NCBI RefSeq assembly: GCF_029478095.1
Contig: NZ_JAKOAV010000006.1
Location: 1-64,000, forward strand
DNA length: 64,000 nucleotides
Direction: 5' to 3'
Origin: Pelotomaculum isophthalicicum JI
GTDB lineage: Bacteria; Bacillota; Desulfotomaculia; Desulfotomaculales; Pelotomaculaceae
In this document: in pieces, positions 5,462-25,352 of the stretch
Layout: every line of letters begins with the position of its first letter
How positions within the stretch are numbered: position 1 is the first letter of the stretch
The notes under the pieces: model-generated
Told to the model about the DNA's origin: nothing
What the model saw: only the letters and a program-made list of their open reading frames with translations
The model's database searches: none
Program-made: the position numbers and the translations under genes

Positions 5462-5800
5462 ATGTTCTTTATGAACTTCACCCTGCCACGCCGGCAACTA
5501 GTGAAAGATAGTACCATAAAAACAAATGAAGAGAAGAAGGAACTCACTGAAATAATGAAACCATCACCTAACTTTGAACAAATCCAACCAGGTCTATATT
5601 GTTTTTCTTTTTCCTCCACAGCCGACTCAGGAACATTTCCCGTCAACCGTCAGCAGCTCAATTTAACACCCTTCAAGCAACAAAAACATTACCCGGCAGA
5701 AGCTCCCGAAAAAATACCGGGGACTAGATTTGTCAAGGCAGACGATCAGCAACCGGGCGCAAACAGCCTATACGATTTGCCCTTATATTGTTTTACCTGA
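5462..5800 (+). CDS. Hypothetical protein, 112 aa
   Basis: I do not recognise this protein. The strongest support is its AAGGGGG Shine-Dalgarno site seven bases before ATG 5462 and a strong terminator at 5860-5887. It is hydrophilic, with Lys/Glu-rich residues 18-35, no signal peptide and no transmembrane helix. Two LYCF repeats occur, one mid-protein and one at the C-terminus, which could mark a short repeated motif. It could be a lineage-specific small protein or a decayed gene. Confidence 0.45.
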   Translation: MFFMNFTLPRRQLVKDSTIKTNEEKKELTEIMKPSPNFEQIQPGLYCFSFSSTADSGTFPVNRQQLNLTPFKQQKHYPAEAPEKIPGTRFVKADDQQPGANSLYDLPLYCFT

Positions 5801-5859
5801 CACAAATAAATACCGGCAGTGTGCCGGAGACTAACCCAATGACCATTTATGTCCTCTCA

Positions 5860-5887
5860 AAAACATAGTCTCAATTGACTATGTTTT
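5860..5887 (+). terminator. Rho-independent terminator
   Basis: An 11-bp perfect stem (5860-5870 with 5877-5887) with a 6-nt loop and T-run, following the 112-aa hypothetical gene. Confidence 0.8.
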
Positions 5888-5929
5888 CTCATTATGAGAC
5901 AATAGCATAAACAAACATATATTCGAAAC

Positions 5930-6050
5930 CCTTGACGCATGGGCAACCGGGAGCTAGCTATGGAGGGTTGGTGCAAGGTGGCCGCCAACACCTTGAAGTA
6001 TCCTGTAGAAGAGTATAAAGGCAGATGCAGATAATGAATTTTACATTGTG
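5930..6050 (+). other. Unexplained GC-rich leader of the methylase gene
   Basis: This stretch is conspicuously more GC-rich than the AT-rich DNA before it. It includes a perfect 7-bp hairpin (5974-5980 with 5989-5995, an 8-nt loop). I tested it by eye against the c-di-GMP-I and SAM-I riboswitch cores and found no match. It may be a structured 5' leader or a remnant of another gene. Confidence 0.3.
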
Positions 6051-10677: not shown

Positions 10678-11373
10678 ATGAACAAGAACAAGCACCCTTT
10701 GATCAGCATAATAATTCCGACCTATAATGAGTCTAAAACTATAAACGAAACTATTGAGCACCTGCGCCACTGGGACAACATCCTTGAAATTATCGCGGTG
10801 GACGGTGGAAGCAGCGACGGCACCGCCCGGCTGGTCAGTCCTGAAGTCAAGCTGATCAACGCTCCCATGGGCAGGGCAAGTCAAATGAACGCGGGCGCCC
10901 GGCTGGCATCCGGTGAAGTACTGCTGTTTTTACACAGTGATACCCGCCTGCCACGTGATTTTCCGCAACAGCTTGATCAAGCTCTGTCCGACAGCGGCGT
11001 GGTTGGGGGCGCGTTCAAAATGAAAATCGACCACCCCGGTTTGTTTTTTTACCTGACCTCCCTTGGTTCAAACCTCAGGGCTGCCGTTACAGGCATTTAT
11101 TTCGGCGATCAGACTATATTCGTGCGGCAAGATGTCTTTCACAAAATAGGAGGCTTCCCATCTATTGAATTAATGGAGGACTGGGAGTTTTCCAAAAGCA
11201 TGCGCCGGGTTGGGAAAACCCTGCTTCTACCCGGCCCCGTCATTACTTCAGCCAGGCGCTGGCTTATTCACGGCAAATGGCGTACCGCCTGGCTGATGCA
11301 CAAGATAAAGACGCTTTACCTTTTAGGAACCAGCCCGGATGATTTAAAAAGGATGTACTCCGACAGGCGCTGA
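10678..11373 (+). CDS. TIGR04283-type arsenosugar biosynthesis glycosyltransferase (GT2)
   Basis: 231 aa. A family 2 glycosyltransferase with ISIIIPTYNESKTI at the start, VDGGSSDGTA for nucleotide-sugar binding, HSDTRLP (DxD-like) around residue 84, and the catalytic EDWEFSKSMRR region. This corresponds to rSAM/selenodomain-associated transferase 2. No membrane helices are evident. It sits divergently from the other arsenosugar genes, and its 3' end overlaps the convergent C_GCAxxG_C_C gene by 30 bp. Confidence 0.87.
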   Translation: MNKNKHPLISIIIPTYNESKTINETIEHLRHWDNILEIIAVDGGSSDGTARLVSPEVKLINAPMGRASQMNAGARLASGEVLLFLHSDTRLPRDFPQQLDQALSDSGVVGGAFKMKIDHPGLFFYLTSLGSNLRAAVTGIYFGDQTIFVRQDVFHKIGGFPSIELMEDWEFSKSMRRVGKTLLLPGPVITSARRWLIHGKWRTAWLMHKIKTLYLLGTSPDDLKRMYSDRR

Positions 11374-11805
11374 TAGCGTCTTCCTGGCCAAAAGCAACTC
11401 CAGGGTAATAGCGGCCGTAGTAACGGTGATTTCCTTACACCTGGTATTTTTAAAGGGTGACAGTTTCTTTCTGAGCCCCCTGCAGCAGGTCAGACCAAAT
11501 TCATTTACAAACTTACGGTGCAGTTCCGCAGCGGCCTCTGAAATTTCCTTGTCGAAGCCCTTTGTTTCGGGACCGGCAAGCAGTAAACCTATTGCCATCA
11601 CTCCTCCCGCCAGAGCCCCGCAAGTGCAGCCGGCGTTCATACCGTGACCGAAACCCGCGGCCAACTGTCTTATGCCGTCTGTTTGGCCGTTTAACAGTTC
11701 CAAGTTGCTCAAAACCACTGCCTGAGCGCAGTTATAGTCCTGGTTAAAGTATTTTTCCGCTCTTATACGCACTTCTTTATCCAGATCCTGATAAAAGTCA
11801 TCCAT
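11344..11805 (-). CDS. C_GCAxxG_C_C family redox-type protein
   Basis: 153 aa. The family pattern is plain: DYNCAQAV, then GCTCGALAGG, then CC in LTCCRGL, then a late Cys in NTRCKE. These cysteines are thought to bind metal or act in redox, but the function of the family is not defined. It lies 12 bp downstream of the flippase-like gene, forming a two-gene operon next to the arsenosugar cluster, where this family is often found. Confidence 0.85.
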   Translation of the reverse strand: MDDFYQDLDKEVRIRAEKYFNQDYNCAQAVVLSNLELLNGQTDGIRQLAAGFGHGMNAGCTCGALAGGVMAIGLLLAGPETKGFDKEISEAAAELHRKFVNEFGLTCCRGLRKKLSPFKNTRCKEITVTTAAITLELLLARKTLSAPVGVHPF

Positions 11806-15541: not shown

Positions 15542-16063
15542 TTAAATTATTCCCACTATTTCATCACGCTCAAGTATAGCACGGCAACACCGATAATTAT
15601 CCGGTAATACCCGAACGGTATAAAATTTCTCCTCTGAATGTATTTCATAAAGGCCGCGATTTCTGTTACGTCTCTCAATAACGATTAAAACAATGCCGCC
15701 TATCACAAGAGCCAGCGCTACGGTTAAAGGGTTAAAAAGCAGTTCCTCCACACGTTTTCCCAGGGTACCCCCGATCAGCAGGGCAGGTACAACCCCTATG
15801 ACCGTCTTTTGCCATAAACCCCATACTTCTTTTTTCTCTATAATTGTTTTATTGCTGCCGAAAGGGAAGATTCTGCTCCAAAAATATACCACCACCGACA
15901 GGATAGCCCCCAATTGTATTACCACGTCAAACATATTCGCGAAATTGCCCGTAAAACCAACTAATTTGTTCACCAAAATCAAATGGCCGGTTGAAGAAAT
16001 AGGCAAAAATTCCGTTATACCTTCGACTATTCCTAATATTATTGCGCTAAAAAAACTATCCAT
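15542..16063 (-). pseudogene. uppP: uppP (undecaprenyl-diphosphatase, BacA) with internal out-of-frame deletion
   Basis: The N-terminal half is a good UppP: ATG 16063 with AAGGAGG, GIVEGITEFLPISSTGH, then VVIQLGAILSVVVYFW and up to IERRNRNR. It then reads out of frame. In the next frame the DNA encodes the genuine UppP C-terminus, FMKYIQRRNFIPFGYYRI and so on, stopping at 15556. About 90 residues are missing, including the conserved PGTSRSG active-site motif, with the junction near 15655-15670. The product cannot be a working phosphatase, so another copy elsewhere in the genome would be needed for undecaprenyl recycling. Confidence 0.85.
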
Positions 16064-16196
16064 CGCAGCCTCCTTGGTTTTATCCATAACTAATTAGAAT
16101 AACAAAAACGGTATACATTCAATGAAACCGGTAGCATCACGCGGCGAAGCATAACACACAATCCTTGCCATCAAGAATCATTTGTCAGCTCTTCCA

Positions 16197-18329
16197 TTAC
16201 TTTTCCGGGTTAATCCGCAACAGCCGGATACCGTTTAATGTTACCAGCAGTGTAGCTCCCATGTCTCCCATGATCGCCAGCCAGAGGGTCAGCCAGCCCG
16301 GAAACACAGCGGCGATAGCAATAGCCTTGATTACCAGGGCAATCCCGATATTTTGCCGGATCACCCCTAGCGCCGCCCGGCTAAGGAGGATCGTAAAAGG
16401 AAGCTTGGCAAGGTCATCGGCCATCAGGGCGATATCCGCCGTTTCCAGCGCCGTATCTGTGCCCGCCCCACCCATGGCGATGCCAATCGTCGAAGCAGCC
16501 AGCGCCGGCGCATCGTTGATGCCGTCACCGACCATGGCAACCCTCCCATGCTCCTGCAAAAGCGTATGGACGGCTTTTACTTTGTCCTGGGGCAACAGTT
16601 CCGCATGAAACTCATCCACCCCGACACGTACCGCTATAGCCCGGGCCGCAGCCTCGTTATCCCCCGTGAGCATAATGGTGCGGCGGATGCCGGCCTGCTT
16701 CAGAGCAGCTATCGCTGTTTTACTATCCCCCCGTACTTCATCGGCAACGGCGATAATCCCCAGGAAACCTCGCGCAGTGTACATAACCATGGCTGTCTTA
16801 CCTTCCTCCTGCAGGCTGTGGATCCGCCTGGCGACAGGCTCTGTATACACACCCAACTCGGTAAACAAGCGGAGGTTTCCCATGTAGACATTCCGCCCAT
16901 TGACAACCCCATACGCTCCACGGCCCGCGAGGGCGTTGAACTCCTCCGCGGGTTCCACCTTAAGACCACGGGCTTCCGCCGCCTTGACAATCGCTATCGC
17001 CAGCGGGTGCTCGGAACGGACCTCCAGGTTGGCGGCAATCTGGAGCAGTGCCAGCTCAGACTCGGACCCCAAAGAAATGACATCGGTGACTGCGGGTTCA
17101 CCTTTCGTTAGAGTGCCTGTTTTATCGAAAGCAACCGCCGTAAGCGCGCCTGCTTGCTCCAAATATATACCACCCTTGATCAGAACCCCTTTCCGGGCAG
17201 CGTTGCCGATAGCACTGACAATAGCTACCGGGGTTGAAACCACAAGAGCGCAAGGGCAAGCTACCACTATTAAAGCCAGACCCCGGTAGATCCACGGCCC
17301 CCACGCATAGCCAAGCAGCAATGGCGGCGCCAGAACAACACAGATAGCCAGGACCAGCACGATCGGGGTGTAAACGGCGGCGAAGCGGTCCACAAACGCC
17401 TGGGAGGGTGCCCGCTGGGCTTGCGCTTCCTCCACCAGGTGAATAATCTTTGAGATGGTTGTGTCCTGAACCAACTTGGTGACTTCAACCTCAATGGAGC
17501 CATGAGTATTGAGGGTACCGGCATAAACTTCACCCCCCGGCCCTTTTTCCACCGGAACGGACTCACCTGTTATGGCTGACTCATTGATCGCTGACTCACC
17601 CTTAATGATACGTCCGTCCATGGCGATTTTCTCACCCGGACGGACGATCATTACGTCACCCACTTGAATATCCTCCACCGGGACTTCCAATTCACCCGTC
17701 AGACGGCGGATCCGGGCCACTTTGGGGGCGATGTTCATGAGTCCGCTGATAGACCGGCGCACACTTTCCATGGTCCAGGATTCCAGCATCTCGGAAACAG
17801 AATACAAGAAGGCTACAACAGCGCCTTCCCTCCACTGACCGATGGCCATGGCTCCGATTATGGCGGTAGTCATCAACACACTCATGTTGATGTCCAGACG
17901 TGGCAAAGAGTATACGGCCTTACGAATATTACCCCAACCGCCGGTCATTATAGCCAGCGCGTATAAGGGGATAAAAGTGAGCGCCATAACACCGGCTTGC
18001 TCTACTATATAAGCGGCCAATAACGCGGTAATGGAAACCACCATCCGCGCCAATTCCCAGTTAATCTCCGGCTTTACCGGCTTAACCTGCTCTTCACCGG
18101 CCGGAACGATGGTGTAGTGTTCCTTCCTGCCTTCCAGCCGGATTGCTTCCAAGTCGGCCGGACCTTCGACTGTCAGCTTGCCGGCCACAGTATTTAAACT
18201 AGCCCTGGTTACACCAGGAAGCGCCGCCACGCTCTTTTCAAACTTGGCGGCACAGTCCATTCAGGTAATTCCTTCTACCCGGAAAACAGTTGTACTTCCG
18301 GGTATACTCAAGCTCCCAACTTGGGCCAT
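16197..18329 (-). CDS. CadA/ZntA-type heavy-metal P-type ATPase with probable in-frame UGA (Sec) at residue 23
   Basis: From ATG 18329 the frame runs through one TGA (18261-18263) to 16197, about 710 residues. An annotation stopping at the TGA would start at ATG 18260 (687 aa). The peptide before the TGA, VFRVEGIT, and after it, MDCAAKFEKSV, form one HMA domain with the metal motif GITUMDC in place of GMxCxxC. Downstream are the TGES actuator motif, the CPC motif in VACPCALVVSTPVAI, the phosphorylation site DKTGTLTKG, and GDGINDAPALA. It presumably exports Cd2+, Zn2+ or Pb2+. The ArsR gene upstream is its likely regulator. If the TGA is a real stop, the HMA domain is broken but the pump core is intact. 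Confidence 0.88.
18221..18253 (-). promoter_or_regulatory. Candidate bacterial SECIS hairpin just after the UGA
   Basis: Starting eight bases after the UGA, a 9-bp stem (18253-18245 with 18229-18221; one G-U pair) is followed inside by an A-G mismatch, four more possible pairs (two G-U), and a GAAAA apical loop. The loop begins 22 bases from the UGA with a G in its first position, as bacterial SECIS elements require. This is folding by eye, not a computed prediction. Confidence 0.6.
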
Positions 18330-18367
18330 CCCAAATCACTCCTAAAAACATGTTCAAATGATTAATA

Positions 18368-18465: not shown

Positions 18466-18840
18466 TTATATCTTTTCCACGTAATTCAAAATTTCTCTCA
18501 TCAGATTCCCAATATTAGTATTCGCTAACCGGTAGTAAACCATTTTGCCATCCCTTCGATACCTGGTGATTCCCAGGTGGTGCAGCAACCGGAGATGGTA
18601 AGAAGCGGTCGCTTTACTGCTGTTGATCAGGGCTGCCACATCGCAAACACAAAGCTCGGCCTTACTGAGAGCATAGATGACCTTTACCCGGGTATCATCA
18701 GCCAGGGCCTTGAAAGTAGTTGCGACACCTTCAATCCGGTCCACCTGAGGCTTAAGCCGGTTCACGATCTCCTGATCAATACAGTTGACCTGGCAAACCG
18801 GGACATCAATCATCAGTTTATCTTCAAGCGGTTTTTGCAA
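18466..18840 (-). CDS. ArsR/SmtB-family metal-responsive repressor (CadC-like)
   Basis: 124 aa from TTG 18840, which has GAGGTGAG just upstream. It is a winged helix with LADDTRVKVIYALSKAELCVCDVAALI, where the CVCD pair in helix alpha3 is the ArsR/CadC metal-sensing site. The recognition helix is SSKATASYHLRLLHHLGI. N-terminal cysteines (VCQVNC) could complete a CadC-type Cd/Pb site. It sits upstream of the P-type ATPase in the same direction and presumably derepresses it when metal binds. Confidence 0.9.
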   Translation of the reverse strand: MQKPLEDKLMIDVPVCQVNCIDQEIVNRLKPQVDRIEGVATTFKALADDTRVKVIYALSKAELCVCDVAALINSSKATASYHLRLLHHLGITRYRRDGKMVYYRLANTNIGNLMREILNYVEKI

Positions 18841-19052: not shown

Positions 19053-19370
19053 CTACACACAACCTCTCGGTTTCGGAAGGCCCGCGACCTTGCAGGCGCC
19101 CTTCGCCGGACCGGCGGGAAATAGTTCATAAATACGCTTCAAACTGCAGCCGGTCTCTTTGCATAACTTCGAAATCATTGGGGCAACTTGAAATTGCTGA
19201 TAATAATCACGCAGGTAATTGATTACTCGCCAGTGCTCGTCGATAAGCTCTTCAATACCTTCGGCCGCGGCAAAAGCCCTGGCTACGTCTTCATTCCAGC
19301 ATTCCGGCTCTATAATAAAACCGTCCTCGTCAACTTCCACTTCCAGGCGGTTAAAGTCAAAGTCGGGCAT
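19053..19370 (-). CDS. dsrC: DsrC/TusE-family sulfur relay protein (copy 1)
   Basis: 105 aa. The whole family signature is present: GFIIEPECWNEDVARAFA, HWRVINYLRDYYQQF, LFPAGPAKGACK and the C-terminal arm ending PKPRGCV. Both redox cysteines, the one in GAC and the penultimate one, are present, so this is a true DsrC able to form the intramolecular trisulfide, not a TusE with one Cys. In sulfate reducers it carries sulfite-derived sulfur from DsrAB; no dsrAB is in this window. It lies 15 bp after the PLP enzyme gene, so it may be the last gene of the sulfur-amino-acid operon. Confidence 0.92.
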   Translation of the reverse strand: MPDFDFNRLEVEVDEDGFIIEPECWNEDVARAFAAAEGIEELIDEHWRVINYLRDYYQQFQVAPMISKLCKETGCSLKRIYELFPAGPAKGACKVAGLPKPRGCV

Positions 19371-19385
19371 TTTATAACACCTCCA

Positions 19386-20519
19386 CTAGGATATTGCAGC
19401 CGCTAAATCTTCAATCAAGTCACCGGGGTCTTCCAGTCCAACCGACAACCTGATCAGATCGCCGGTCACTCCGGTACGCACCCTGTGGTCAGGGTGCATT
19501 CCCGCGTGAGACATGGTCACAGGATAGGAGATTATACTCTCAACAGCGCCGAGGCTTACCGCCAAGGCCGATAATTTAACGTTCTCTAACAACCTTTTGG
19601 CCATCTCCTCAGTCTGCATGCGAAACGACACGATACCTCCAGGCCCGTCGGCCTGGCTGTCATGGATTTCCTTGCCGGGATGATCCGGCAAGCCGGGAAA
19701 ATATACTTCCTTTACTTCCGGGCAGCCGGCCAGCCATTCCGCCAATTTACGCGCGCCGCTCTGGTGCATGTCCATACGCGCTTTCAAAGTCTTGATCCCG
19801 CGCATCAAAAGCCAGCAGTCCTGAGGCCCCAGAACCGCCCCGAAAGAATACTGAATATAATTAATGCGTTCGGCGGTTTGCTTATCCGCCGCCACTACCA
19901 ATCCGGCAAGCAGATCACTGTGACCACCGAGGTATTTGGTAGCGCTATGAATGACGATATCTATACCAAGTTCAATGGGACGTTGCAAATAAGGAGTCAG
20001 AAAAGTATTATCAACCATACTCAACAAACCATTCTCTCTGGCAATGGCGGAAACTGCCCGCAAATCCGTAATTTTCAGAAGAGGGTTGGAAGGTGTTTCC
20101 GCGTAAACACCCTTGGTGTTTCGCCGCAAGGCTGTCTTGACTTTAGCGGGGTCGGTGAAATCAACAAAAGTCACTTCGATGCCCAACCGGTTAAACAGTC
20201 CTGTCAGCACCCGGTATGTGCCGCCATAGACATCCTCGCAGACCACTATATGGTCGCCCGGCGAGAAGAGCAATAACACGCTGGATATAGCAGCTATCCC
20301 TGAAGAAAAGGCAAAACCCCTGACGCCTCCCTCCAACTTGGCTATTATCGCTTCAAGGGCGTCCCTTGTAGGATTACCTGAACGGGCGTATTCATACGGT
20401 CCAAACTCATCAACTTTATTCTGTTTAAAAGTTGAGGCATGGTATACAGGAATACTTACAGCTCCGGTGGTTTGTTCAATTTCGTTTCCCGTATGCAGGA
20501 TTCTGGTGCCAAATTTCAT
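19386..20519 (-). CDS. Trans-sulfuration PLP enzyme (cystathionine gamma-synthase / beta-lyase family)
   Basis: 377 aa, Cys/Met metabolism PLP family. It shows YARSGNPTRDALE, the PLP-binding Asp in VDNTFLTPYLQ, and the PLP lysine in SATKYLGGHSD (about residue 195). Members perform gamma-replacement, beta-elimination or gamma-elimination on homoserine or cysteine derivatives, and sequence alone does not separate these. It lies 11 bp downstream of a close paralogue, suggesting the pair supplies the two steps between cysteine and homocysteine. Confidence 0.9.
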   Translation of the reverse strand: MKFGTRILHTGNEIEQTTGAVSIPVYHASTFKQNKVDEFGPYEYARSGNPTRDALEAIIAKLEGGVRGFAFSSGIAAISSVLLLFSPGDHIVVCEDVYGGTYRVLTGLFNRLGIEVTFVDFTDPAKVKTALRRNTKGVYAETPSNPLLKITDLRAVSAIARENGLLSMVDNTFLTPYLQRPIELGIDIVIHSATKYLGGHSDLLAGLVVAADKQTAERINYIQYSFGAVLGPQDCWLLMRGIKTLKARMDMHQSGARKLAEWLAGCPEVKEVYFPGLPDHPGKEIHDSQADGPGGIVSFRMQTEEMAKRLLENVKLSALAVSLGAVESIISYPVTMSHAGMHPDHRVRTGVTGDLIRLSVGLEDPGDLIEDLAAAIS

Positions 20520-20530
20520 ACATCGACCTC

Positions 20531-21709
20531 CTATTCAATAAAGGCCTGTTCCAAATCGGACAGCAGTTCGTCGACATCTTCGATACCCACCGACAGCCTC
20601 AATAATCTCTCATTTATGCCCAGGCGTTCCCGCTCTGCCGGGTCTATATCAGCATGGGTCTGAAATGCCGGGAACGTTACCAGTGTCTCCACTCCTCCCA
20701 GGCTCTCGGCGAATGAAACAAGTCTGACCTTGTTGAGGATCTGTTCGGCCATGGATTTATCCATTACCTCAAAAGAAACCATGGCGCCGAACCCTCGAGC
20801 CTGCTCTTTGAGCAACTGGTGGCCGGGGTGAGTTTCCAGTCCCGGGTAAAACACCCGGCGGACAGCTTTATGGCTTGCCAGCCAGCAGGCTATTGTTCGC
20901 GCGTTTTCTGTTTGCCGGTCTAATCTGACTCCCAGAGTTTTCATACCCCGGATAACTAACCAGCTATCCTGGGGTCCCAATACCGCCCCTACGGAATTCT
21001 GAAGAAAATAGATTCTTTCAGCCATCTCTTCACTCTTGGCCACAATTAATCCCGCGACTACATCATTGTGTCCGGCGAGAAATTTGGTCGCGCTGTATAC
21101 AACAAGATCAGCCCCCATTGCCAGGGGCTGTTGCAGGTAGGGTGTCATAAAGGTATTATCCACAATAGTCAGCAAGCTCTTTTCCCTGGCCATAGCGCTG
21201 ATCCTGCTTATGTCGGCCACCTTCAGGAGAGGGTTGGTAGGCGTCTCCAGCAGGATAGCCTTGGTTTCATCTTTTATCGCCAGGGTGACCTGGTCAAGAT
21301 CACTGGTATCAACAAAAGTTGCCGCCAGTCTGTACTGGGAAAAAACCTTGTCCAGCAATCTGAATGTTCCCCCGTACAGATCCTCTGTCACAATAAGATG
21401 GTCACCCGGCTTAAAGAGCAGCAACAGGTTTGTCAAAGCCGCCATACCGGACGCGTAGGCAAATCCCCCGGCGCCCCCGTCAAGCCGGGCGATGCCCTTC
21501 TCCAGCACCTGGCGAGTGGGGTTGCCGCTGCGGGAGTAATCATATCCGGTGCTTTCACCAAAACGGGGATGACGGAAGGTAGCAGTCTGGTAAATGGGAA
21601 TCGACAGGGCGCCTGTAGGGTCTTGTCCCACTCCCAATTGTACCGCTTCTGTGGAGGTTTTAATAACTTTCTCTCCTTTCTTTAACTGCGCATCCCGGCA
21701 GATCATCAT
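20531..21709 (-). CDS. Trans-sulfuration PLP enzyme, paralogue of the following gene
   Basis: 392 aa, same family: YDYSRSGNPTRQVLEKG, VDNTFMTPYLQQ and the PLP lysine in SATKFLAGHND. The only ATG starts (21709, 21706) lie inside the 3' end of the ThiF gene. An AAAGGAGAG site a little downstream precedes codons for VIKTSTEAV but no standard start, so the ATG is kept. Likely cystathionine gamma-synthase or beta-lyase. It is cotranscribed with the E1-like and sulfur-carrier genes upstream, which suggests that the carrier delivers sulfur to one of these PLP enzymes. Confidence 0.9.
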   Translation of the reverse strand: MMICRDAQLKKGEKVIKTSTEAVQLGVGQDPTGALSIPIYQTATFRHPRFGESTGYDYSRSGNPTRQVLEKGIARLDGGAGGFAYASGMAALTNLLLLFKPGDHLIVTEDLYGGTFRLLDKVFSQYRLAATFVDTSDLDQVTLAIKDETKAILLETPTNPLLKVADISRISAMAREKSLLTIVDNTFMTPYLQQPLAMGADLVVYSATKFLAGHNDVVAGLIVAKSEEMAERIYFLQNSVGAVLGPQDSWLVIRGMKTLGVRLDRQTENARTIACWLASHKAVRRVFYPGLETHPGHQLLKEQARGFGAMVSFEVMDKSMAEQILNKVRLVSFAESLGGVETLVTFPAFQTHADIDPAERERLGINERLLRLSVGIEDVDELLSDLEQAFIE

Positions 21710-22481
21710 CCGTCAGTCCGGTTATGGTAGGATTATCCCCGCAAACAGGGCAGTCAGGATCTCTCCTGACCTGTATTTCTTTGAACTTCATGTCCAGGGC
21801 GTTATAAGCGATCAAGCGGCCCACAAGCAAATCCCCCTTGCCCAGCAGGTATTTCAAGACCTCGGTAGCCTGGATTATCCCAATCGTCCCCGCCAGAACC
21901 CCCAGCACACCGGCCTCTGAGCAGGACGGCACCGAGCCGGGCGGTGGCGGCTCACGCAATATGCAGCGCAAACAGGGTCCTTTGCCGGGAATAACTGTAA
22001 AGGTTTGGCCGGTAAAACCAAGGACTCCTCCGTGAACGAAAATTTTCCCGGCCATGACGCAGGCATCGTTAACCAGATAACGGGTGGGGAAATTATCTAC
22101 CCCGTCGACTATCACATCATAATCCCGGATAATTTCATTTATATTTTGAGCCGTCAACTTCTCCCAATGGGGCACAACATTACAATCAGGATTCAGGGCG
22201 TTCAGTTTTTCTTTGGCTGAATCAACTTTGGGCTTGCCGATGTCTTTGGTAGTGTGCAGGATTTGTCTTTGCAAATTGCTTAGATCAACTGCGTCGCAAT
22301 CGATAATACCGATTGTTCCGACACCTGCGGCCGCCAAGTAATACGCTGCCGGAGAGCCCAAACCTCCCGCTCCGGCGATCAGGACCCTGCCGTCATTAAT
22401 TTTCTTCTGGCCTATGCCGCCCACCTCGGGAAGGACGATCTGCCTGCTGTATCTCACGATTTGCTCTTCTGTAAAATCCAA
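21660..22481 (-). CDS. ThiF/MoeB/HesA-family E1-like adenylyltransferase (HcyF-like by context)
   Basis: About 273 aa. The ATP-binding loop GAGGLGSPAAYYLAAAG (about residues 36-52) and the conserved Arg/Asp pairs of MoeB/ThiF follow the start. Zinc-binding CxxC pairs (CLRC and CPVC) are present. TTG 22481 is preferred: AAAGG lies nine bases before it and the protein then starts MDFTEEQI, the MoeB/ThiF consensus. ATG 22490 and ATG 22538 are alternatives. It would adenylate the C-terminus of a ubiquitin-like sulfur carrier. The gene directly upstream encodes such a carrier fused to TusA. Confidence 0.88.
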   Translation of the reverse strand: MDFTEEQIVRYSRQIVLPEVGGIGQKKINDGRVLIAGAGGLGSPAAYYLAAAGVGTIGIIDCDAVDLSNLQRQILHTTKDIGKPKVDSAKEKLNALNPDCNVVPHWEKLTAQNINEIIRDYDVIVDGVDNFPTRYLVNDACVMAGKIFVHGGVLGFTGQTFTVIPGKGPCLRCILREPPPPGSVPSCSEAGVLGVLAGTIGIIQATEVLKYLLGKGDLLVGRLIAYNALDMKFKEIQVRRDPDCPVCGDNPTITGLTDDDLPGCAVKERRESY

Positions 22482-22524
22482 GCGCACCATCCTTTCAAGA
22501 CCACCGCTACCCCGGCTTGTTACT

Positions 22525-22974
22525 TTACTTGCCTGCATCCGTAAACAGCAGGTTGACCGAATCGCCCGATTTGATTATCGTGCTCTCGAAAGCTTCCCTG
22601 AAAAGAATTGCGCCGTTCAAACCGACGGTCACCATTTCGGGGTTAAGTCCGTACTCTTTAACTAGTTCAATTACCGTATATTCTTTACTCAGTAATTCCT
22701 TCTCACCGTTAAGCGTGATTATTACTTCATATTGTCCCTTTTCAATCAATAATCTATATTTTGTATCTATCTTCTCGGTCAGAATTATTTTATGTCCTTC
22801 ACCTTTGACACTTTTCGGAACATTTTCTGCAGCTTCTCCGCCGTTAAGGAAAACTTCAAGAATATCACCACTTTGCAGTTGTTCCAGTCTGAGTTTTGTT
22901 TTAACGAATGTTACCGGACAAACATCGGGAGTGATATCCAGAGTGGCTTTTATCTTAAAATCTTTGTACTTCAT
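22525..22974 (-). CDS. TusA-ThiS fusion sulfur-carrier protein
   Basis: About 149 aa from ATG 22974. Residues 1-75 are a TusA-like sulfurtransferase domain with the persulfide Cys in DVCPVTFVKTKL. Residues about 80-149 are a ThiS/MoaD-type beta-grasp domain (EYTVIELVKEYGLNPEMV, then FREAFESTIIKSGD). The C-terminus reads DAGK, not the free GG needed for adenylation, so a final Lys may have to be trimmed, as happens in HcyS-type carriers. The fusion puts sulfur donor and carrier in one polypeptide. No JAMM peptidase is seen in this window. It lies between Rrf2 and the E1-like gene. Confidence 0.85.
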   Translation of the reverse strand: MKYKDFKIKATLDITPDVCPVTFVKTKLRLEQLQSGDILEVFLNGGEAAENVPKSVKGEGHKIILTEKIDTKYRLLIEKGQYEVIITLNGEKELLSKEYTVIELVKEYGLNPEMVTVGLNGAILFREAFESTIIKSGDSVNLLFTDAGK

Positions 22975-22990
22975 TTTACCGTTCCAGCGC

Positions 22991-23446
22991 CTAAATATAA
23001 TACATGCTGGCTTCGCTCGACAGGCGCATCTTTTCCGCTTCTTTGCAAAGATCTTCCAGGGTAGTGCTATCCAGCACACCAGCGATTGACTCCCGGATTC
23101 TTTCCCACATCACCCGCGTGGCGCAAGTTTCAGCCCGCGCACATATTTCAGGATCATCTTCGCTCACACAGCCCGTTGGGTTTATCGGCCCTTCCAGACA
23201 CCTGACGACCTCACCGGCAGTAATCCGGGCAGGCTCCCGGGACAGCAGATAGCCTCCCTGGGCTCCCCGCACGCTCCGGACCAACCCTCCTTTACGTAAA
23301 AAAGTCATCAACTGTTCAAGATACCCCTCGGAAATCCCTTGTCTTTCCGCTACCCGGACGAGAGGAACCGGTTCGTGTGGAGAATAGTATTGCGCCAGAT
23401 CCACCATAGCCCGCAAACCGTATCTTGCCCGCGTCGTGAATTTCAA
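22991..23446 (-). CDS. Rrf2-family transcriptional regulator (IscR/CymR-like)
   Basis: About 151 aa. TTG 23446 is chosen because GAGAGGGTG sits just upstream and the protein then begins MKFTTRARYGLRAMVDLA, the Rrf2 N-terminus. The winged helix is followed by RGAQGGYLLSREP. Three cysteines in TGCVSEDDPEICARAETC are placed like the [2Fe-2S] ligands of IscR, though the first gap is longer (eight residues rather than five). It probably senses Fe-S or cysteine status and controls this sulfur block and perhaps iscS at 59 kb. Confidence 0.9.
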   Translation of the reverse strand: MKFTTRARYGLRAMVDLAQYYSPHEPVPLVRVAERQGISEGYLEQLMTFLRKGGLVRSVRGAQGGYLLSREPARITAGEVVRCLEGPINPTGCVSEDDPEICARAETCATRVMWERIRESIAGVLDSTTLEDLCKEAEKMRLSSEASMYYI

Positions 23447-23490
23447 GCCTAACACCCTCTCTAACTTCACAAGTTATTGGGAATGGCAAT

Positions 23491-23871
23491 CTATTTGTCC
23501 TGGCTGTTTTTGTAGTCCTCAATAGCCTTGTGCAAGGCGTCCGCAGCCAGGTTGGAGCAGTGCATCTTTTGCGGGGGAAGCCCGTCAAGCATGTCGGCCA
23601 CCGCCTGTTTAGTGATTTTTAAAGCTTCTTCTATTGTTTTTCCTTTTGCCATTTCTGTAACCATACTGCTTGTAGCGATAGCCGCCCCACAGCCAAAAGT
23701 CTTAAACTTAATATCAGTTATGATGTTGTCTTCAACCTTAATGGAAATCTTCATAATGTCACCGCAGACAGGATTGCCAACTTCACCTACGCCACAAGCG
23801 TCAGGTATTTCCCCAACATTCCTTGGATTGCTGAAGTGATCCATAACTTTCTCACTGTAAATAACGATCAT
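23491..23871 (-). CDS. iscU: Fe-S cluster scaffold IscU (NifU N-terminal type)
   Basis: 126 aa. The three scaffold cysteines are present: NPVCGD, TFGCGAA and KMHCSNL, together with the Asp after the first Cys. SEKVMDHFSNPRNVG is the usual N-terminus. It assembles [2Fe-2S]/[4Fe-4S] clusters from IscS-supplied sulfur. Here it sits next to the Rrf2 regulator but without iscS, which is 35 kb away at 58.8-60.0 kb. Confidence 0.94.
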   Translation of the reverse strand: MIVIYSEKVMDHFSNPRNVGEIPDACGVGEVGNPVCGDIMKISIKVEDNIITDIKFKTFGCGAAIATSSMVTEMAKGKTIEEALKITKQAVADMLDGLPPQKMHCSNLAADALHKAIEDYKNSQDK

Positions 23872-23931
23872 CCCCTCACTTGTTCTGTTTAATAACTGTG
23901 ATTAATCTTTAAAGTTATGTTATATTTAGGC

Positions 23932-25352
<1,421 letters not shown>

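Follow-up and report, generated by a model that had tools for sequence, protein, structure and literature searches.

A heavy-metal P-type ATPase gene of Pelotomaculum isophthalicicum with a UGA predicted to encode selenocysteine at the first HMA ligand position

Introduction

Among selenoproteins whose function is known, redox enzymes predominate, and it is unusual for a transporter to have selenium as a probable metal ligand. The locus described here raises the question of whether a metal-exporting ATPase carries selenocysteine (Sec) at a metal-binding position encoded by UGA. We analyzed a window of 64,000 nucleotides from Pelotomaculum isophthalicicum JI, to which all coordinates refer unless another contig is named. 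Selenoproteins of this kind have precedents: the family “Cation-transporting ATPase E1-E2” (UxxC, TIGR01525; example ABB15669.1) has already been tabulated (PMC13188914), a UxxC form of the same ATPase family occurs in GOS samples (PMC2398784), and a table in ISME J from 2016 gives 25 and 32 for it, which we take as organisms and proteins (PMC5029168).

The ATPase gene and its in-frame TGA

16197-18329, minus strand: heavy-metal P-type ATPase gene (P1B-2, ZntA/CadA-like), 710 residues, predicted Sec (U) at residue 23
18335-18345 (approximate), minus strand: Shine-Dalgarno region AGGAG before the ATG at 18329, identified by eye
18261-18263, minus strand: in-frame TGA, predicted from the sequence and a homologue alignment to be read as Sec, at the first ligand position of the HMA UxxC motif

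The entry for this gene in the list of open reading frames begins at MDC, directly after a TGA. The initial annotation had proposed that the frame is intact back to an ATG at 18329 with a Shine-Dalgarno site, that it encodes a normal HMA N terminus, and that its one TGA falls exactly at the first Cys of the CxxC motif, and all three points hold. Translation of the frame gives a protein that starts MAQVGSLSIPGSTTVFRVEGIT-U-MDCAAKFEKSVAALPGV; the sole in-frame TGA is at 18263-18261 (residue 23), and the frame is otherwise open to residue 710. The Pfam HMA match (residues 15 to 63, E value of 3e-11) spans the TGA, which lies in GIT-U-MDC, such that UxxC occupies residues 23 to 26. In the codons 5′ of the TGA, synonymous variation exceeds nonsynonymous variation, with a ratio of 0.44 that is crude and near saturation.

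The family of the product can be assigned from its sequence, and the protein is predicted to be a zinc/cadmium/lead-type (P1B-2) heavy-metal-exporting ATPase. E1-E2_ATPase and Hydrolase domains are also matched in Pfam, and the NCBIfam models TIGR01525 (607 bits; cutoff, 346) and ATPase-IB2_Cd (526 bits; cutoff, 313.5) are both exceeded. The catalytic motifs TGES, DKTGT, HP, and GDGxND are intact; CPC is at residue 358 and, together with the Lys of IALVIK and the Asp of MGDMGA, aligns with the residues of the zinc site in ZntA. The best solved-structure match is ZntA (PDB 4umv), over residues 8 to 705. Scores for the ZntA equivalogs NF033775 (547.5; curated cutoff, 1240) and NF008262 (627.6; curated cutoff, 1005) are below the cutoff, and we therefore do not call the protein ZntA itself. 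It shares with ZntA/CadA the architecture, the CPC, Lys, and Asp metal-site residues, the catalytic motifs, and a linked ArsR/SmtB regulator, but it has Sec, as predicted, where those proteins have the first HMA Cys, and Thr before this position where the ZntA match has Asp (GMDCAAC).

Hairpins downstream of the UGA

18221-18253, minus strand: SECIS-type hairpin with a 9-bp stem, one unpaired base on each side, a 4-bp stem, and the apical loop GAAAA (18239-18235), identified by folding, shuffles, and covariation
18204-18218, minus strand: another short hairpin (CCUGG-UGUAA-CCAGG), which the main Sec clade conserves

Bacterial SECIS elements are stem-loops just downstream of the UGA, with a G among the first two bases of an apical loop that lies about 16 to 37 nucleotides from it. 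A SECIS-like hairpin with a GAAAA loop 8 to 40 nucleotides past the UGA had been noticed at the outset, and folding and shuffling bear it out. Its energy is −21 to −25 kcal/mol, and its loop follows the UGA by 21 nucleotides and begins with G. Dinucleotide shuffling puts the energy z score at −4.5 to −4.7; with synonymous codons shuffled instead, it is −3.7, and none of these shuffles (0/300) was as stable. Across homologues, the mean synonymous-shuffle z score is −1.77 for 30 distinct TGA sequences versus −0.09 for 41 Cys sequences.

The stem also covaries. When 22 TGA sequences are aligned without gaps, 90.4% of cells are paired, with 21 double-sided changes (0/500 shuffles), counts that are not independent events, given that the sequences are related; shifting the partners by 1 to 3 columns leaves at most 56% paired. 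The same structure laid on 22 Cys homologues gives 53.3% paired, no better than shuffles, and no covariation, in a set less uniform than the main TGA clade (71% versus 86% mean column identity). The second hairpin behaves similarly, with 96% of cells paired in Sec forms versus 45% in Cys forms; seven sequences have CCCGG/CCGGG for CCUGG/CCAGG, a double-sided change. Among distant TGA members, L109, L071, L023, and L024 have a weak first hairpin and may use other geometries.

Sec machinery in the genome

The 3.6-Mb Pelotomaculum genome encodes the full set of genes that was sought, namely selA, selB (two copies), selC, and selD. The tRNA-Sec gene (selC) scores 66.7 bits (cutoff, 47), selA is followed directly by selB in tandem, and a second selB is on another contig. 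The selD gene itself has an in-frame TGA near the N terminus, in the region where SelD proteins have the active-site Cys or Sec. Both selB genes (L090 and L091, on contigs C1 and C54) are complete and similar, and in the stretch read selA lies beside the first only; the two copies could reflect a duplication or contamination of the metagenome-assembled genome (MAG) (3.3%).

Distribution of TGA and Cys forms

A contig scan and class and phylum surveys recovered 29 more distinct homologues with TGA at this codon, from Clostridia, Bacilli, and Actinomycetota. Carriers include Dethiobacter, Thermosediminibacter, Actinomycetota/Coriobacteriia, Evansella, Aquibacillus, and numerous further Bacillota-type genomes, from isolates as well as MAGs. 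The remaining homologues, 41 Cys sequences that include Limnochordales, Thermovorax, and Fervidicola, have TGC or TGT, and neither TAA nor TAG occurs at this codon among the homologues aligned. The expectation that a random stop would not fall precisely at a metal ligand is thus borne out by 30 distinct sequences with the same TGA. The case for a TGA-decoded Sec in place of the CxxC Cys had been made to depend on Sec machinery in the genome, on Cys or Sec at this position in homologues, and on the TGA not being a sequencing error; it is supported on all three counts, the last because the same TGA recurs in independent genomes.

All but three of the TGA genomes tested, both Bacillaceae included, have a tRNA-Sec match of at least 60 bits; a clear match is absent from three fragmented genomes (G093, G123, and the borderline G126). 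Several matches scoring less than about 52 bits occur even in genomes that have a clear tRNA-Sec, so such matches most likely represent other tRNAs. The best match in the genome of a close Cys form from Limnochordales (L013) is only 49 bits. Evansella and Aquibacillus (L023 and L024; tRNA-Sec, 60 to 64 bits) share the position of the TGA, which lies in GLH-U-AGC, and have a stem-loop that is differently placed.

On a quick tree with several open forks, Sec and Cys interchanged at least seven times, a count that is approximate. Two proteins (L012, at 5531-5930 of its contig, and L064) have tandem HMA domains, the first with TGA (Sec) and the second with Cys. The residue before Sec is Thr or His in 31/31 TGA rows, and that before the first HMA Cys is Asp in 25 of 42 Cys rows. 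Asp before CxxC is an extra ligand of zinc-type HMA domains; Thr or His in its place may reflect a preference for softer metals or just ancestry.

Two separate observations concern shortened or decayed HMA domains. In Thermovorax and Fervidicola (L018 and L020), the HMA is truncated: it stops immediately past CPDCAARFED and is fused there to the membrane part, so that the CxxC tail is all that remains of it. The Pelotomaculum genome has, in addition to the ATPase gene, a solitary and decayed copy of its HMA domain (L089; C31:33323-33472, minus strand) in which the TGA is kept and a further TAA is present; a transposase-like open reading frame lies not far from it.

How the UGA is read

The reading that accounts best for these data, and that we hold with high confidence on sequence grounds, is that the gene encodes a P1B-2 exporter with Sec for the first HMA CxxC Cys, the UGA being decoded via SelB and the hairpin. 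SelB with bound Sec-tRNA would recognize the hairpin just downstream of the UGA, which would then be decoded as Sec, and for such SelB-dependent insertion the support is as strong as sequence can give. From the frame, the TGA position, the conserved and covarying hairpin, and the Sec machinery, each read directly from the DNA, we infer actual Sec insertion at residue 23.

The TGA could instead be a true stop, with translation (re)starting at the ATG after it and yielding a pump without a complete CxxC. An ATG does directly follow the TGA in this gene and some others (10/35 TGA rows), so a shorter product without the first ligand could also be made. In most TGA relatives, however, the next codon is CTC, CTG, ATC, GCN, or ACA, and this lack of conservation of the ATG leads us to reject reinitiation as the principal route. 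The pre-TGA frame is conserved as HMA sequence, the hairpin is conserved in TGA forms only, and the Cys forms read straight through, all of which make a true stop improbable. More remote still is a sequencing error or decaying pseudogene. An internal deletion and a frameshift disrupt the adjacent uppP (15542-16087, minus strand), of which a near-identical Pelotomaculum contig (L053) has an intact copy, so the locus tolerates damage; yet the same TGA in many isolate genomes and MAGs already refutes this explanation, and the 687 codons after the TGA are open with all catalytic motifs kept. For practical purposes, sequencing error, a pseudogene, and chance can all be dismissed as causes of the TGA. 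Equally far-fetched is UGA reassignment or nonspecific readthrough (e.g., as Trp), for which we found no evidence and against which stand the full Sec machinery, Cys rather than Trp in homologues, and the SECIS-type hairpin.

With Sec decoded at residue 23, the Sec and Cys of UxxC would, because of their position, form the HMA metal site, placing Sec in a metal sensor or loading site. Soft metal ions (Cd, Pb, Hg, Zn, or Cu(I)) are the probable ligands of the pair, in what would be a loading or regulatory domain on the cytoplasmic side; the pair may also be redox responsive, and selenium may offer some benefit over sulfur there.

Relation to known selenoproteins

The ATPase is another member of the already predicted family: it matches TIGR01525 and has UxxC with Sec, as predicted, at the first position. 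To judge from their descriptions, it is not among the published examples consulted. The Sec-containing “putative mercuric transport protein” and CopZ-like (2Fe-2S) selenoproteins are other families that likewise place Sec, with a predicted ligand role, in a metal-handling protein (PMC13188914). The analysis adds the stem covariation to what is described for the family; what seems new are the second conserved hairpin, the at least seven Sec/Cys switches, the Bacillaceae members, and the tandem Sec-HMA/Cys-HMA proteins.

Repeated Sec/Cys interconversion, the tandem pairs, and the lack of Asp before Sec tentatively suggest that Sec at the HMA ligand position serves as a functional tuning switch, a reading we regard as possible but rather unlikely; within it, the second hairpin could be a further part of the recoding signal. 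If true, pumps with the switch could form a class of their own, specialized for very soft metals or for metal loading under redox control. Recurrent switching within one pump family provides natural matched pairs for the effect of selenium on metal binding and export. Sec pumps are probably undercounted, because gene finders would truncate them at a start after the TGA.

Genomic context

18466-18840, minus strand: ArsR/SmtB metalloregulator with an ELCVCD motif, the next upstream gene, identified by profile match

In most relatives, too, the ATPase gene has a similar regulator beside it, encoded on either strand. By analogy, regulator and ATPase fit a metal-induced exporter operon like cadC-cadA, and the ArsR-family metal sensor probably controls it. 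Neighboring genes are 95 to 100% identical to those on the L053 contig, which is from Pelotomaculum sp. PtaB.Bin013. Upstream of the exporter (19386-25337, minus strand) are three genes for trans-sulfuration-type PLP enzymes, a ThiF-like gene, and an IscU-like gene, and a DsrC-family gene (19053-19370) adjoins this cluster. Elsewhere in the window (11344-11805, minus strand) is a Cys form of the C-GCAxxG-C-C family, which also has Sec forms.
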